A DNA stretch of 64,000 nucleotides from Maricaulis sp. (GTDB taxonomy: Bacteria; Pseudomonadota; Alphaproteobacteria; Caulobacterales; Maricaulaceae). Every line of letters begins with the position of its first letter. The first letter of the stretch is position 1. A program made the translations under genes and the position numbers. The stretch lies in the NCBI RefSeq assembly GCF_030149515.1, contig NZ_JASBRI010000028.1:1-64000 (forward strand), read 5' to 3'. Shown here one piece after another: positions 2,769 to 33,728 of this stretch. The notes below the pieces were generated by a model. It did no database searches and was not told where the DNA came from. It saw nothing but the letters and a program-made list of their open reading frames with translations.

Positions 2769-4064
2769 TCAATCCAGCGCTTCGGCCAGCGCGCCGGGCG
2801 TGCCGGCGATGTCGCGGACCCGGACAGGGCGGTTCAGAACATCGCCGAGTGCGGGCGGGAGTTCGACGCGGTGATCGAGCGCCGGTTCGACGATATCGGC
2901 GAACTTGCCGGGATGCGCGGTCGCCGCAGCGATCCAGCGACGTCCGGTCCGCATCCCGGTATCCAGTCGCGCATGGGCCTCCAGGGCCGTCGCGGTATGC
3001 GGGCAGGCCATATAGCCTGTGCGGTCGAACGTCCGGCGCAGGCGGGCGCGGATCGTCGCGTCGTCGACGCATTCGACTGCCGCGATTTCGGCATCGGGAA
3101 AGGCTGCCAGGCGTTCGAAATTGCTCGGCGCGCCGACATCCATCGCATTGGCGATCGTGGCAATCGAGGCGCGCGGCTCGTAGCGATGCGAGACGAACCA
3201 GCTGGAAAGCGTCGTATTGGCGTTGGTCGCCAGCACGATCGGACCGATGGGCAGGCCGCAGGCCCGGGCCAGAACGGCCGCAAAGGCATTGCCCAGATTG
3301 CCGGTGGGCACGACAAGGCCGGGTTTCTCGCCGGTTTCGGCATAGGCGTCGAGCGCAGCGCGGGACCAGTAGACCATTTGCGGCAGGAGCCGGCCGATGC
3401 TGATCGAATTGGCCGATGTCAGCGTGTGCCGGGCACTCAGTTGCCGATCGGAAAAGGCCGCCTTGACCATGGCCTGGCATGCATCGAAATCGCCGTCGAC
3501 ACGAAGGGCCTCGACCGGGGGGGCCCAGCAGCACAGCTGGTGTTCCTGGAAGGCGGAAATGCGGCCTTTGGGAAAGAGGATCACCGCGCGGGTGCCGGGA
3601 ACCCCTTCGGCGGCACACCCGGCCGCGCCGCCCGTATCGCCCGAGGTGGCCACCAGAACCGTGACGGGATTGCCGGCGCTCTGGCCCAGGGCCGAAAAAG
3701 AGCGGAACAGGAAGCGGGCGCCGAAATCCTTGAAGGCGCCCGTGGGGCCATGAAACAGTTCGAGTATCTCAAGTCCCGGATCGCCGGGATCGGGACGTAT
3801 CCGCGGGGCCGGGAAATTGAAGGCGTCGCGGCAAATCGGACCGATCTGGCCGGCCAGGGGCGAGCCGGCGAAGAAGGGCGCCAGAAGTCGTTCACCCAGA
3901 TCGGCCAGTCCGCCTGTTCCATCGAAAGCGTCCGGGGCGAAGGCGGGCAGCGTGCCCGGCAGGTAGAGCCCGCCATCCGGCGCGGCGCCGGCGCGCAATG
4001 CGGTATCGGCCGTCACGCCGGGCGCCTGGCTGCGGGTCGAGATGTACAGCATGGGGTCGCTCAT
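2769..4064 (-). CDS. thrC: Threonine synthase
   Basis: This PLP enzyme converts O-phosphohomoserine to threonine, the last step of threonine synthesis, in the cytoplasm. The 431-residue length fits the long (class II) threonine synthases. Visible signatures are the PLP-lysine motif GPTGAFKDFGARF, the phosphate-binding ATSGDTGGAA, and VPTGNLGNAFA. The start codon overlaps the thrB stop in an ATGA arrangement, so thrB and thrC are translationally coupled. It is the third structural gene of the thr operon whose leader lies at 6850-7131. Confidence 0.95.
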   Translation of the reverse strand: MSDPMLYISTRSQAPGVTADTALRAGAAPDGGLYLPGTLPAFAPDAFDGTGGLADLGERLLAPFFAGSPLAGQIGPICRDAFNFPAPRIRPDPGDPGLEILELFHGPTGAFKDFGARFLFRSFSALGQSAGNPVTVLVATSGDTGGAAGCAAEGVPGTRAVILFPKGRISAFQEHQLCCWAPPVEALRVDGDFDACQAMVKAAFSDRQLSARHTLTSANSISIGRLLPQMVYWSRAALDAYAETGEKPGLVVPTGNLGNAFAAVLARACGLPIGPIVLATNANTTLSSWFVSHRYEPRASIATIANAMDVGAPSNFERLAAFPDAEIAAVECVDDATIRARLRRTFDRTGYMACPHTATALEAHARLDTGMRTGRRWIAAATAHPGKFADIVEPALDHRVELPPALGDVLNRPVRVRDIAGTPGALAEALD

Positions 4065-5005
4065 TCCAGGGGCTCCAGGCGCAGGCCGGCAGAGTCCAGG
4101 GGCGCATCGTAGACGGTGGCCGGACAGCCGGCCGCCTTGAAGGCGCCCGACATGGCCGATTCCACTGCCGGCAGGTCGCGTTCGCGGGCCCAGGCGAAAA
4201 CCGAGGGGCCGGAGCCGGAAAAGGAACAGCCCAGGGCACCGGCGTTCAGCGCGGCAGTTTTGACCGCAGCCAGTTCGGGCAGAAGCGTGGCGCGCTGGGG
4301 TTCGATGAAGACGTCGTTCAGACCGCTGGCCACGAGGTCGACATCATTGGTCGCACAGCCGGCGACGAAGGCGGCCATGTTGCGGGAATGTTCGACTGCT
4401 ATGTCCTTGGCGATCACCGGCGCGAGCAATTGGCGCGCGGACTGTGTCTCGATGGTGCGCCGGGGATGGAAAAGCAGGCAGGCGATGTCTGCGGGCAGGG
4501 GGAGTCGGCGGATCAGTGGCGGGTCGAGCCGGGCCGCCAGCACAAGACCGCCCATCAGGGCCGCCATTACATTGTCCCACGGCGGCGGGTCGGCGGAGAC
4601 CCTTTCACCTTCCATGGCCAGAGGCAGCAGATCGGACAGCGAAAACGGGCTTTCCAGCACGGCATTGGCGGCACCGGCCGCGGCGACGGCCGACGCAGCT
4701 GACCCGCCCATGCCGGCGCTCATGGGGACGCCCTTGTGTACATCCACGCGCAGTCCGAACCGGGCGCCGGCGGCCTCGAGCACGGCCGACGCCGCGGCGA
4801 GGGCGCAATTCTGCCCGACGGTGCCGGGCAAGGTCTCGACCAGGCCGGACACGGTGCCCAGGCGCACACCCCGGGTCTCTTCAACCGTGACGCTGACCGT
4901 ATCGCGCACGGCATCGAAGGCGAGGCCGAGCACGTCGAAGCCGACGCCCACATTCCCGATGCTGGCGGGTGCGCTGGCGCGGGCCGCCGTTCTTTTTGAC
5001 TTCAT
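4061..5005 (-). CDS. thrB: Homoserine kinase (GHMP family)
   Basis: The protein phosphorylates homoserine with ATP to give O-phosphohomoserine, the substrate of ThrC. The 314-residue protein has the GHMP-kinase ATP-binding motif GVPMSAGMGGSAAS near residue 92, an N-terminal ASIGNVGVGFDVLGLA and a C-terminal GCSFSGSGPSVFA loop. This is the GHMP type, as in E. coli ThrB, rather than the APH-like homoserine kinase (ThrB2) of many alphaproteobacteria. ATGA overlaps join it to the fused aspartokinase-homoserine dehydrogenase upstream and to thrC downstream. Confidence 0.95.
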   Translation of the reverse strand: MKSKRTAARASAPASIGNVGVGFDVLGLAFDAVRDTVSVTVEETRGVRLGTVSGLVETLPGTVGQNCALAAASAVLEAAGARFGLRVDVHKGVPMSAGMGGSAASAVAAAGAANAVLESPFSLSDLLPLAMEGERVSADPPPWDNVMAALMGGLVLAARLDPPLIRRLPLPADIACLLFHPRRTIETQSARQLLAPVIAKDIAVEHSRNMAAFVAGCATNDVDLVASGLNDVFIEPQRATLLPELAAVKTAALNAGALGCSFSGSGPSVFAWARERDLPAVESAMSGAFKAAGCPATVYDAPLDSAGLRLEPLE

Positions 5006-6792
5006 GCCACCGATCCCGTCGATATTCGGCGGATATGGCTAAGCGGATTCTCCGGAACGGGCGATGTTTCAGCGTTTCCCGCCAGATAGGCGCGCTGAAT
5101 GTCCATGATATCGGCGAAGACGGCCTCTGCGGTGGGCCAGCGGCCCGCGCCCTTGCCGTGCACGGCAATCGTCCGGTGCGGCAGACGCACAAGGAAGCCA
5201 TTGCCCTCGTTCACCAGTCCCGCCAGGGGGTGAGCCGGGTCCAGCGCCTCGATATCGACACGTGCCTCGACCTGCCCCTCCGGGGACACGGTGCAGCGCG
5301 CGACCTGTTTGAAGACGAGGCCCTCCTCGTTGACGGCACGAATCCGATGGTGGTCGAGATCGTTCAGGCTCTCGCACGGGATCCTGTCGGGAGCCAGGGT
5401 CACGCCGAAGGCATGGCGGACGATGATGGCCAGCTTGTCGGCCGCATCCAGCCCGTCCACATCGGTGCTCGGGTCGGCCTCCGCGAATCCTAGGCGCTGG
5501 GCTTCGGCGATCGCGTCGGCCAGGCGCGCGCCGGCCCGCAATTGACCGAAGATGAAATTGCAGGTGCCGTTCATGACGCCTTCGACGGACAGGACGGTGT
5601 CATTGGCGGCCAGCAGGTCGATCAGTTCGAGTATCGGTACTCCGCCCCCGACCGCTGCCGAGTAGCGCAATTGCCGGCCCTGCTGGCGGGCGAGCTCCTG
5701 AAGGCGGTCGATATCCAGTGCCACCACGGCCTTGTTGGCAGAGACGAGGTGGCTTCCATCCCTGAGGACGCTTTGGCTCAGCGAGCGGGCAAATCCGGTA
5801 CCGCCCATGGTTTCCACAACGATGTCGGGCGTGTTTGCCAGCGCATCGGCCGGGTCGTCGGTGAAGCTGAGCACGGTGTCGCCAACCGCCCTGGCGTGCT
5901 TGTCCGGGTCGCGGACCAGCACGGGGGCGAGTTCGAACCGGCCCGGATGCGCCAGAAGGTGCGAGCATACTCCGGCTCCCACGGCGCCATGCCCAAGGAC
6001 GGCCACGCGCAGCCTGCCGGTATTGGGAACGGGCCCCGCGCGGCGTTTCACCGCGCCGATGCGCGTGGCGAATGGGCGGCCCAGGGCGGCCACTTCGATC
6101 ACCACGCGATTGTCCCGGGCGCGGAAGATAGCCTTCTCCTGGACCAGGCCGCGGCTGACCTTGGCGGCCTCGTCATAGTCGAGCTGGTCAAGCCGTACGG
6201 CTTCGGGATTTCTGGCCGGGTCGTCGGTATACACACCGTCGACATCCTTGATCAGGCGTACCCGGTCGGCGCCGAGCCAATGGGCGAATTCCACTGCGGT
6301 TAGATCCGTGCCGCCCCGCCCGAGCGTGACGGGACCCTCGACCCCTTCACCGAAGAAACCCGGTGCCACGATCACATCGGCGGACTCGAAATGCGACAGG
6401 ACACGGTCCGCATCGAGGCCGGTGAGATTGGCATCCAGGGGCTCGCCATCGGCCTTGAGACCCATTTCGTGGGGATCGAGAACGGCGGAGGGGATTCCGG
6501 AACGCTGCAGCGCCAGACCCATGAGCGCCGCCGACTTGATTTCCCCGCATCGCACCAGCCGCGCCATCAACCGGTCCGAGCAATTCTGGCCGACCGTATG
6601 ACCGACACCGAACAGGGCGTCCGTCTCGCCCTGCAGTGCGGACACGACGGCAACGACTTTCTCGCCGCCGCGAGTATGGCGATAGATCTCGTGCGCGGCG
6701 CGGGCATAGTCGTCGGGCTTTTGCAGGACAGAACTGCCGAATTTGAGAACGCACAGCTTGAGCGGTTTTCGGGCTTCTAGGTCGAGGGGCAT
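5002..6792 (-). CDS. thrA: Bifunctional aspartokinase-homoserine dehydrogenase without ACT domains
   Basis: It carries out the first and third steps of the aspartate pathway, aspartate to aspartyl phosphate and aspartate semialdehyde to homoserine. Counting from ATG 6792 (596 aa), an aspartokinase core spans about residues 12-246 (LKFGSS, GRGGTDLTA, KDVDGVYTDDP). A homoserine dehydrogenase follows directly at about 260-571 (GHGAVGAGV, SANKAVVA, GVMNGTCNFI, DPSTDVDGLDAADK). Only about 14 residues join the two. The ACT pair that lies between them in E. coli ThrA (820 aa) is missing, and there is no C-terminal ACT. I chose 6792 because AAAGGA lies ten bases upstream; the longest frame starts at 6849, immediately after a terminator U-run. 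Confidence 0.92.
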   Translation of the reverse strand: MPLDLEARKPLKLCVLKFGSSVLQKPDDYARAAHEIYRHTRGGEKVVAVVSALQGETDALFGVGHTVGQNCSDRLMARLVRCGEIKSAALMGLALQRSGIPSAVLDPHEMGLKADGEPLDANLTGLDADRVLSHFESADVIVAPGFFGEGVEGPVTLGRGGTDLTAVEFAHWLGADRVRLIKDVDGVYTDDPARNPEAVRLDQLDYDEAAKVSRGLVQEKAIFRARDNRVVIEVAALGRPFATRIGAVKRRAGPVPNTGRLRVAVLGHGAVGAGVCSHLLAHPGRFELAPVLVRDPDKHARAVGDTVLSFTDDPADALANTPDIVVETMGGTGFARSLSQSVLRDGSHLVSANKAVVALDIDRLQELARQQGRQLRYSAAVGGGVPILELIDLLAANDTVLSVEGVMNGTCNFIFGQLRAGARLADAIAEAQRLGFAEADPSTDVDGLDAADKLAIIVRHAFGVTLAPDRIPCESLNDLDHHRIRAVNEEGLVFKQVARCTVSPEGQVEARVDIEALDPAHPLAGLVNEGNGFLVRLPHRTIAVHGKGAGRWPTAEAVFADIMDIQRAYLAGNAETSPVPENPLSHIRRISTGSVA

Positions 6793-6850
6793 GGGTCCGG
6801 TGTCCTTTGGGTCTTTGCTGCGTGGTGAGGAAGTCTTGGTTTCGGGCATG

Positions 6851-6883
6851 AAAAAACCCGCTCGCCGGGCCGGGGAGCGGGTT
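6851..6883 (-). terminator. Intrinsic terminator/attenuator in the thr operon leader
   Basis: On the minus strand a 9-bp perfect stem (AACCCGCTC with GAGCGGGTT, bases 6883-6875 and 6863-6855) with an 11-base GC-rich loop is followed at once by a run of T residues reaching 6851. This is a canonical intrinsic terminator, placed between the Thr-rich leader frame and the fused thrA gene. Its position before the first structural gene identifies it as a probable attenuator rather than an end-of-operon terminator. Confidence 0.8.
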
Positions 6884-6909
6884 CGGTGTGTTGCGGTCGT
6901 TTCGATCCG

Positions 6910-7062
6910 CTAGCGCACGCCGGCCGCCCCCCAGGTCCAGGAGGTGGTCGTAATCATGGTGGTGGTGGTACCGAGGCCGCCGTCAGTCGTGCAGCCAAGA
7001 CCGGACAGACCGGTCGCGGTCTGGGTCTGAAGGCCTGCAATCATTGTCGCGTCGAGCGGCAT
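6910..7062 (-). CDS. thrL: Threonine-rich leader peptide of the thr operon
   Basis: The short frame ends with four consecutive Thr codons, Met, Ile, then three more Thr codons, Ser-Trp-Thr-Trp and a short tail before TAG at 6910. Seven of the eight Thr codons in the core are ACC. A terminator hairpin starts 27 bases after the stop, and thrA-thrB-thrC follow. This is the architecture of the enterobacterial thrL attenuator (Thr/Ile codons, terminator, thrABC). The sequence is not related to E. coli thrL. The start is uncertain: in-frame starts exist at 7131 (GTG), 7125, 7077, 7062 and 7044, none with a strong ribosome-binding site. I use the 50-codon version. Confidence 0.65.
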   Translation of the reverse strand: MPLDATMIAGLQTQTATGLSGLGCTTDGGLGTTTTMITTTSWTWGAAGVR

Positions 7063-7306
7063 GACGGATCCATCCATGAGGCAGCGGCGTGCTGCGTTTG
7101 CGAAGTCGTACAAAGAAAGGCGCATCTTCACGCCAACGTCAAACAGTTTTTTGCTCGCGAAGCCATTTCCGGTCCGCGGTGTGCACGATTTTGTCTCAAG
7201 GATTTCCCGGCAATTGTACCGGACGAAAGCGATCCTTGCGATTTGCCGTGTTGTGACGGACGATCTTCACCAGGATGGCGCAAAAGCGGGACAGGGGAGA
7301 TTCTAC

Positions 7307-7711
7307 ATGCTCCGCAATATTCTGGCAGTGATCGCAGGCATCGTGGCCGGCGGCATCGGCGTCGGCGTATTCGAATGGCTGGGACATATGGCCTTCCCGC
7401 TGCAGCCGGCGCTGATGGCGCAGCTTTCCGACCCGGAAACCTTCCGGGAGGCCGCCGCGCAGGTGCCTGACATCAATCGCCTGGCGGTCGTGGCCGCATG
7501 GGCCCTGGGTGCCCTTGTTGCCGGTGCCGTGACCGCCTTCGTCGCGCGCCGGCGCCATACCGGCCTCGCCCTGATCGCCGGCGGCGGGCTCCTGTTCGCG
7601 GGATTGAGCAATCTGATCATGATCCCCAGCCCATTGTGGATGTGGGCGCTGGGGCTGGCCGTATTCATGCCCATGGCCTGGCTGGGCGCGCGCCTGGTTC
7701 CGCACCGCTAG
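7307..7711 (+). CDS. Small integral membrane protein, function unknown
   Basis: The 134-residue protein is strongly hydrophobic, with about four membrane segments (roughly residues 4-25, 60-80, 84-103 and 108-128), and ends in a short basic tail. I recognise no catalytic motif. The ATG at 7307 has AGGGGAGA about eight bases upstream, which makes it preferable to earlier in-frame starts back to 7061. It is divergent from the thr operon leader and converges on pckA; a hairpin separates it from pckA. Confidence 0.75.
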   Translation: MLRNILAVIAGIVAGGIGVGVFEWLGHMAFPLQPALMAQLSDPETFREAAAQVPDINRLAVVAAWALGALVAGAVTAFVARRRHTGLALIAGGGLLFAGLSNLIMIPSPLWMWALGLAVFMPMAWLGARLVPHR

Positions 7712-33653: not shown

Positions 33654-33728
33654 TGGTGCCGCTAGAGTGATTTGAACACTCGACCTCTCCCTTACCAAGG
33701 GAACGCTCTACCCCTGAGCTATAGCGGC
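33654..33728 (-). tRNA. tRNA-Thr (anticodon GGU)
   Basis: The minus-strand sequence folds into a cloverleaf. The 7-bp acceptor is GCCGCTA with TAGCGGC. The D arm contains AGCTCAGGGGTAGAGC, and the anticodon stem CCC/GGG carries loop TTGGTAA, giving anticodon GGT. The T arm contains GTTCAAATC. The discriminator is A and the CCA end is encoded. It reads ACC and ACU codons; ACC is the codon that dominates the thr leader peptide. Confidence 0.97.

Follow-up and report, generated by a model that had tools for sequence, protein, structure and literature searches.

A probable ribosome-mediated transcription attenuator ahead of the threonine operon in Maricaulis and its family

Attenuation control of thr genes is known mainly from Escherichia coli and its relatives. 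In E. coli, thrL encodes a leader peptide rich in Thr and Ile codons and is followed by a terminator ahead of thrA-B-C, and the ThrA-type fusion of aspartokinase and homoserine dehydrogenase (AK-HSD) carries an ACT regulatory domain between kinase and dehydrogenase; the trp leader of the same species has a protector hairpin and, when untranslated, gives no read-through. For the Pasteurellales, a 2004 study by Vitreschak reportedly predicted that Met codons accompany those for Thr and Ile in the thrA leader. Alphaproteobacterial cases in the literature include, from the order to which Maricaulis belongs, the ilvBN attenuator of Caulobacter crescentus with Ile/Val leader codons and a rho-independent terminator (Tarleton 1994, as cited in PMC4117421), and also cysS leader attenuation in Rhodobacterales (PMC8632094), and the Sinorhizobium leader candidate SEP5, a small ORF in a 5'-UTR with a cluster of six Thr codons, for which the accessible text shows no switch (PMC10117765). 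Amino-acid attenuator motifs have been suggested to originate in gammaproteobacteria (PMC3766115), and the main text of a broad attenuator survey does not mention threonine, thrA or homoserine (PMC2965389). Among the matches listed in our literature search, which covered mostly non-subscription literature, none reported attenuation of thr genes for Maricaulis or other members of its family.

Here we describe such a leader in a Maricaulis genome, in a stretch of 64,000 nucleotides that was analysed as a whole and that we call the window. Its features, from the presumed promoter to the end of the operon, are as follows.

7137 to 7142, minus strand: TTGACG, the -35-like element of the presumed promoter
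6910 to 7062, minus strand: leader ORF of 50 amino acids, MPLDATMIAGLQTQTATGLSGLGCTTDGGLGTTTTMITTTSWTWGAAGVR followed by the stop codon, with a putative start codon
6943 to 6969, minus strand: regulatory codons 32-40 of the leader, Thr4-Met-Ile-Thr3 (TTTTMITTT)
6924 to 6932, minus strand: 5' arm of the antiterminator, GGGGGGCGG, which directly follows the Thr run within the last part of the leader ORF and pairs with the 5' arm of the terminator
6872 to 6932, minus strand: antiterminator helix region from minimum free energy (MFE) folds, formed by 6932-6924 and 6880-6872 and enclosing a small hairpin past the stop codon
6851 to 6883, minus strand: intrinsic terminator, arms 6883-6875 and 6863-6855 and then a U run, -19.3 kcal/mol, z -2.95
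5002 to 6849, minus strand: AK-HSD fusion (thrA function), 615 residues, Pfam AA_kinase, NAD_binding_3 and Homoserine_dh
4061 to 5005, minus strand: thrB, homoserine kinase, TIGR00191 and NF002288 above cut-off
2769 to 4064, minus strand: thrC, threonine synthase, TIGR00260 above cut-off

The Maricaulis leader resembles E. coli thrL in its Thr/Ile-rich peptide, its terminator and its regulatory logic, and differs in a longer peptide (50 amino acids), in its Met codons and in an AK-HSD that has no ACT domain. With the Pasteurellales thrA leaders, as those are reported, it shares the presence of Met codons when a single AK-HSD supplies both branches; the Pasteurellales are gammaproteobacteria, however, and the Maricaulis enzyme is a short ACT-less fusion. 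The Caulobacter ilvBN attenuator has the same order of elements but precedes a branched-chain operon (PMC4117421). SEP5 is likewise an alphaproteobacterial small ORF with a Thr cluster, although it also has three Lys codons and lies before a gene annotated as aspartate dehydrogenase (PMC10117765).

Comparison with Rfam placed the locus outside the described family: Thr_leader (RF00506) did not reach its gathering score of 55 bits and was absent even at E<=10 over 6700-7300, where the highest bit score belonged to Trp_leader (17.6, cut-off 41). Thr_leader rose above its cut-off in 0 of 289 alphaproteobacterial genomes versus 1 of 14 control genomes, and its matches at E<=0.1 in 155 of the 289, all below the cut-off, were rejected as leaders. 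The initial annotation of this DNA, made from the sequence by eye, had called the peptide unrelated to E. coli ThrL and the attenuator possibly independent, which the missing Thr_leader match supports as far as it goes, and we consider the Maricaulis attenuator probably independent of thrL.

The downstream order proposed there, a fused AK-HSD followed by thrB and thrC, was borne out by Pfam and NCBIfam matches, with thrB and thrC passing NCBIfam equivalog cut-offs. The true start of AK-HSD may be ATG 6792, behind AAAGGA. Pfam detected no ACT domain in the enzyme at E<=0.001, which sets it apart from the E. coli ThrA type, and ACT domains are present in the separate aspartokinase of the same genome (L216). 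Since the fusion has no ACT domain, threonine regulation may rest on RNA, and the leader may provide the main part, or most, of the threonine feedback. At E<=1e-60 the fusion was found in 1 of 289 genomes of the class, the window's own, and an uninterrupted match also occurs in G044 and G052, from another family of the same order; in some relatives a stop codon interrupts the stretch, and kinase and dehydrogenase may there be adjacent separate genes. Close relatives of the enzyme lie on contigs of M. maris DSM 4734, M. salignorans, M. parjimensis and M. alexandrii and on one Oceanicaulis contig.

The leader ORF ends in GTTTTMITTTSWTWGAAGVR and a TAG stop at 6912-6910 (minus strand), and both the Thr4-Met-Ile-Thr3 run and the frame end described in the initial annotation are present. 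Its interval needs one amendment, in that the Thr-rich frame stands and its first ATG (7125) does not: 7125 is an unlikely start because it lies just downstream of a TTTGAC block conserved upstream of the leader in 19/19 Maricaulis loci (TTGAC from 7142), and this position is probably inside the presumed promoter. The likely start, judged from aligned relatives, is ATG 7062, which is common to their leaders and gives the 50-residue peptide. Transcription presumably starts near 7107. A scan with the sigma-70 consensus did not list the presumed leader promoter, for which conservation is the evidence. Directly after the presumed transcription start is an inverted repeat, GCAGC...GCTGC (7095-7081, minus strand), which is partly kept in relatives and is possibly an operator or a 5' hairpin. 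The intergenic region is shared with a divergent frame at 7061-7711 (plus strand, 216 amino acids) that looks like a membrane protein by eye, has no Pfam match and probably has its real start near 7307; an ordinary 12-bp terminator-like hairpin lies at 7746-7720 (minus strand), past a PEP carboxykinase gene.

Between the leader ORF and the first operon gene stands the intrinsic terminator, whose hairpin AACCCGCTC/GAGCGGGTT has 9 bp, 6 of them G-C, and is followed by six T at 6856-6851. The 9-bp GC hairpin with a U-run had been recognised before, at a supposed 27 bases from the leader's stop codon; the hairpin holds and the distance measures 26 nt. Scanning the whole window for terminators that follow a frame in which the same residue fills at least 6 of 9 positions returned a single site, this leader, and the same scan on 20 shuffled windows (mononucleotides, 200-nt blocks) returned 0.

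Folding the leader for alternative structures, which the initial annotation had proposed as a check, revealed in silico a conserved antiterminator arm that excludes the terminator: GGGGGGCGG at 6932-6924 is complementary to CCGCTCCCC at 6880-6872 within the terminator, so that the two structures are mutually exclusive. This arm, missing from the initial annotation, is what supplies the switch in the folding model. This model treats the whole transcript as blocked as far as some 10 nt downstream of the ribosomal A site. On that basis, P(terminator) in the window was 0.00 whichever Thr, Met or Ile codon of 32-40 occupied the A site, and 1.00 when codon 43 or the stop codon did so. Over 23 loci (the window, the 18 other Maricaulis genomes and 4 same-family loci) the availability of the antiterminator likewise depended in silico on ribosome position, with L014, L015, L016, L020 and L023 not clean. 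With the arm free, P(terminator) was at most 0.04 in 19/23 loci; it was 0.28 in L015, a mixed case, and 0.85, 0.80 and 1.00 in L014, L016 and L023, where the terminator is favoured at equilibrium even so. With the terminator-adjacent RNA alone free, it was 0.91-1.00 in 22/23 loci and 0.00 in L020, in which the terminator never forms in the model. For the case with the arm free, shuffles of the sequence upstream of the terminator matched or undercut the observed P(terminator) in at most 5% of cases at 18/23 loci. The 141-nt leader end was moderately more stable than shuffles (z -1.80), and the antiterminator piece 6875-6932 folded alone was no better than shuffles (z -1.08).

A clear protector hairpin like that of E. 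coli trp was not seen in the Maricaulis thr leader. A candidate 1:2 hairpin, CCUCC/GGGGG, was paired in 91.6% of cells, yet in 90.5% when slid by one; its 4-bp form is present in the consensus fold of the 23 loci and absent from the MFE fold of the naked leader, and the untranslated leader of the window folds as antiterminator (MFE). If a protector hairpin is indeed missing, an untranslated Maricaulis leader would be predicted to read through, in contrast to that of E. coli trp.

We read the thr operon leader of the alphaproteobacterial Maricaulis family, with high confidence, as a ribosome-mediated transcription attenuator, a reading that draws on sequence, conservation, codon content and in silico pairing and that agrees with the attenuator interpretation of the initial annotation, which the conserved Thr runs and terminators and the antiterminator arm support. 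The leader very probably lets the ribosome sense threonine shortage. RNA polymerase would start near 7107 from the putative promoter and transcribe the leader ORF while a ribosome translates it. When charged tRNA-Thr (perhaps also tRNA-Ile or tRNA-Met) is scarce, the ribosome would stall in codons 32-40, leaving the G-rich arm at 6932-6924 free to pair with 6880-6872, so that the terminator would not form and AK-HSD, thrB and thrC would be transcribed. When amino acids are plentiful, the ribosome would reach the stop codon and cover the arm, the terminator would form, and transcription would end before AK-HSD. Promoter use, translation, stalling, termination and amino-acid response are presumed features of this scheme. 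The window also holds a tRNA-Thr (GGT) gene at 33654-33728, which presumably reads ACC by standard decoding, and ACC codons dominate the leader.

A covariance model, R1, was built from 19 genus sequences. R1 matched 62 of 137 family genomes at E<=1, of which 52 have the match upstream of AK-HSD (by homology or position), and together with G020, found by reading, the thr leader layout thus occurs in 53 genomes from 9 genera of the Maricaulis family; the other ten genomes gave weak matches that stand outside this count, the one in G137 preceding ilvD. The Thr runs and terminators for which the initial annotation had proposed looking in relatives were found in each of the other 18 Maricaulis genomes and, beyond this genus, in 8 more genera of the family, and the order of Thr run, G-rich arm, stop codon and terminator was kept in the 18 genomes and the 4 same-family loci, including L014, whose leader fell below the initial Thr threshold and is nevertheless present. 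Among 17 named loci, a set that overlaps with the counted genomes, 16 have the leader; the exception, L045, lacks it because the N terminus of the kinase is missing there, on a contig that looks chimeric. In the class at large, R1 matched 3 of 385 genomes at E<=0.1, the window's own and two unrelated, in a search whose filters lose weak matches. The matches outside the family, G223 and G172, were rejected, as they have no leader with an amino-acid run and their downstream frames are unlike AK, HSD or ilvD. No comparable leader was found before the distant homologues L024, L025 and L027-L030, with L028 (G052) having merely a short MTRTTACT frame and no terminator, nor in G033, G035 and G044. 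Before the distant AK-HSD of G020 (L026/L114) there is a leader containing MTTMMTIIIAGG, followed by a terminator, and its Thr, Met and Ile are all three of the homoserine-derived amino acids.

Comparing 12 relatives in all pairs, single-base differences over the last 22 codons of the frame were 177 synonymous versus 83 non-synonymous, and over the whole 46 codons 252 versus 375 (213/526 and 221/479 in the wrong frames). As differences at the frame end are mostly synonymous and those of the whole frame are not, constraint as judged from these alignments is strong at the end and weak upstream. At the 23 loci, which are related and thus not independent counts, 143 of the 322 codons in the 14 positions ahead of the antiterminator arm specify Thr, versus 5.2% in 7 window proteins. 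A rival reading is a constitutive terminator behind a small conserved protein gene, in which the ORF would yield a working peptide, the hairpin would do no more than end its transcript and the thr genes would be served by a promoter further down; in its favour, C-terminal residues (SWTRGAAGV and close forms) are conserved in part of Maricaulis. This stretch is, however, also the antiterminator arm, and in other genera the protein is not conserved whereas the pairing is; the ilv leaders described below keep the scaffold and swap the codons. The promoter scan listed no site between terminator and AK-HSD, a result of little weight as the presumed leader promoter was also unlisted. We consider a constitutive terminator very improbable.

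The pairing was followed within the genus and beyond it. In the 19 genus sequences, standard pairs fill 97.1% of helix-1 cells and a few sequences have mismatches; pairing of arm and terminator reaches 91.4% of cells versus 42-53% when slid. Paired columns scarcely vary within the genus, two-sided changes in them were absent and covariation measures were no better than shuffles, so that by sequence comparison the pairing is kept there by plain conservation. The consensus fold of the 23 loci chose the terminator over the antiterminator, with two-sided changes in 4/14 pairs, most of them from one sequence. Across genera, arm and terminator change together, and L193 alters the arm and both terminator strands. 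Alignment of 80 sites (49 thr, 22 ilvD and 9 ilvC) showed that position 8 of the terminator 5' core lies outside the unbroken stem in 75/80 and forms a standard pair with the arm in 69/80, in five kinds (C-G 54, G-C 8, A-T 3, G-T 3, T-G 1); the pairing count is favoured by taking the best-matching arm at each site, and at L124 and L126 the wrong terminator arm was selected. Mononucleotide shuffles gave an equally good arm match with a mean chance of 0.06, below 0.05 in 56/80 sites and at or above it in 24/80.

At E<=1, R1 also picked out a second, weaker site in 16 of the 19 Maricaulis genomes, and all of these sites have a Leu/Val-rich leader. In the window's genome this leader (L148 1501-1624) reads LGLLLLVLVLIITPITG, is rich in Leu, Val and Ile, has a terminator and precedes a row of ilvD, ilvC, ilvB, a leuA-like gene and a class IV aminotransferase (L219, G000:C4:27500-35500). 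In other genera a Leu/Val leader stands before ilvC, divergent from the thr operon. Back-to-back attenuators occur in genera g14, g5 and g15 (L150, L153, L160, L176, L184, L198, L199), where about 460-505 nt separate the thr leader from the divergent one of ilvC. At the aligned loci ilvD was confirmed in 19/22, with three assigned by leader only, and ilvC was read from sequence by eye in 7/9 and assigned by position alone in 2.

Codon content differed between the two kinds of leader: Thr accounts for 311/686 codons in 49 thr leaders versus 50/434 in 31 ilv leaders, in which Leu (141/434) and Val (97/434) are frequent. For nine g7 loci the frame with a stop 5 nt earlier was taken, chosen by Thr content, which raised Thr from 38.9% to 45.3% and Met from 6.3% to 8.3% of the 686 codons, so that enrichment in Thr, Met or Ile draws no independent support from these loci. 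The leaders are thus rich in codons for the product of their operon, a hallmark of ribosome-mediated attenuators. Judged from the aligned leaders, codon content follows the downstream pathway while the switch core stays, and because the sensor codons swap with the pathway around a constant core, the pattern is hard to explain except by attenuation. It also speaks against a metabolite riboswitch or T-box with an incidental ORF; a structured, conserved leader ahead of a biosynthetic operon would suit such an element, and Rfam gave neither a riboswitch nor a T-box, be it across the window at the gathering threshold or over 6700-7300 at E<=10, which makes this explanation extremely improbable.

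Within the attenuator reading, it is possible that the Met (and Ile) codons are true sensors too, homoserine feeding Thr, Ile and Met; we regard such a multi-input attenuator as a serious possibility, somewhat short of probable. Met makes up 57/686 codons in thr leaders versus 2/434 in same-family ilv leaders, and the G020 leader contains MTTMMTIII. Met per leader is 1.86 in genomes with no second HSD match (n=21) versus 0.58 in those with one (n=31; Mann-Whitney p 3.8e-6), as exemplified by M. salignorans, whose leader has 4 Met codons and for which a second HSD was not found, and M. maris (1 Met, second HSD). In the window's genome the second HSD (333 amino acids, no ACT; L217 3467-6553) is followed in its gene row by an alpha/beta hydrolase that reads as MetX-like and by a Cys/Met PLP enzyme, and from its gene content this row, examined in this genome, is probably the Met branch. 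Against these points, correction by the AK-HSD tree (PGLS) gave an effect of 0.93 (p=0.049) with only 4 parsimony changes over 48 of 53 genomes, G008 (69% complete) and four genomes with <250 residues of protein being left out, and the Met hypothesis was formed after the pattern was visible. There are also exceptions, as two g8 genomes have neither a second HSD match nor Met, G010 has a second HSD match and yet 2 Met, 5/10 g7 genomes have a single Met, and absence of a second HSD is less sure in three g7 genomes that are 81-87% complete. Moreover, ATG is one base away from ACG and ATC codons, and the window leader has only one Met in this stretch.

The class of mechanism is known, whereas the lineage, the shared thr/ilv scaffold and the Met trend look new. 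As a tentative scheme, on the doubtful side for now, a home-grown family scaffold with a CCGCTCCC core might have been placed before thr, ilvD and ilvC and re-specified by its sensor codons, with Met gained where the fusion is the sole HSD. Genomes that hold both a thr and an ilv version offer an unusually clean natural control, or natural experiment, on the way in which sensor codons set the specificity of an attenuator. The Met trend, in turn, relates leader codons to the layout of the pathway in a form that can be tested. If the scheme is true, the Met codons in the leader would record which branches AK-HSD must feed.
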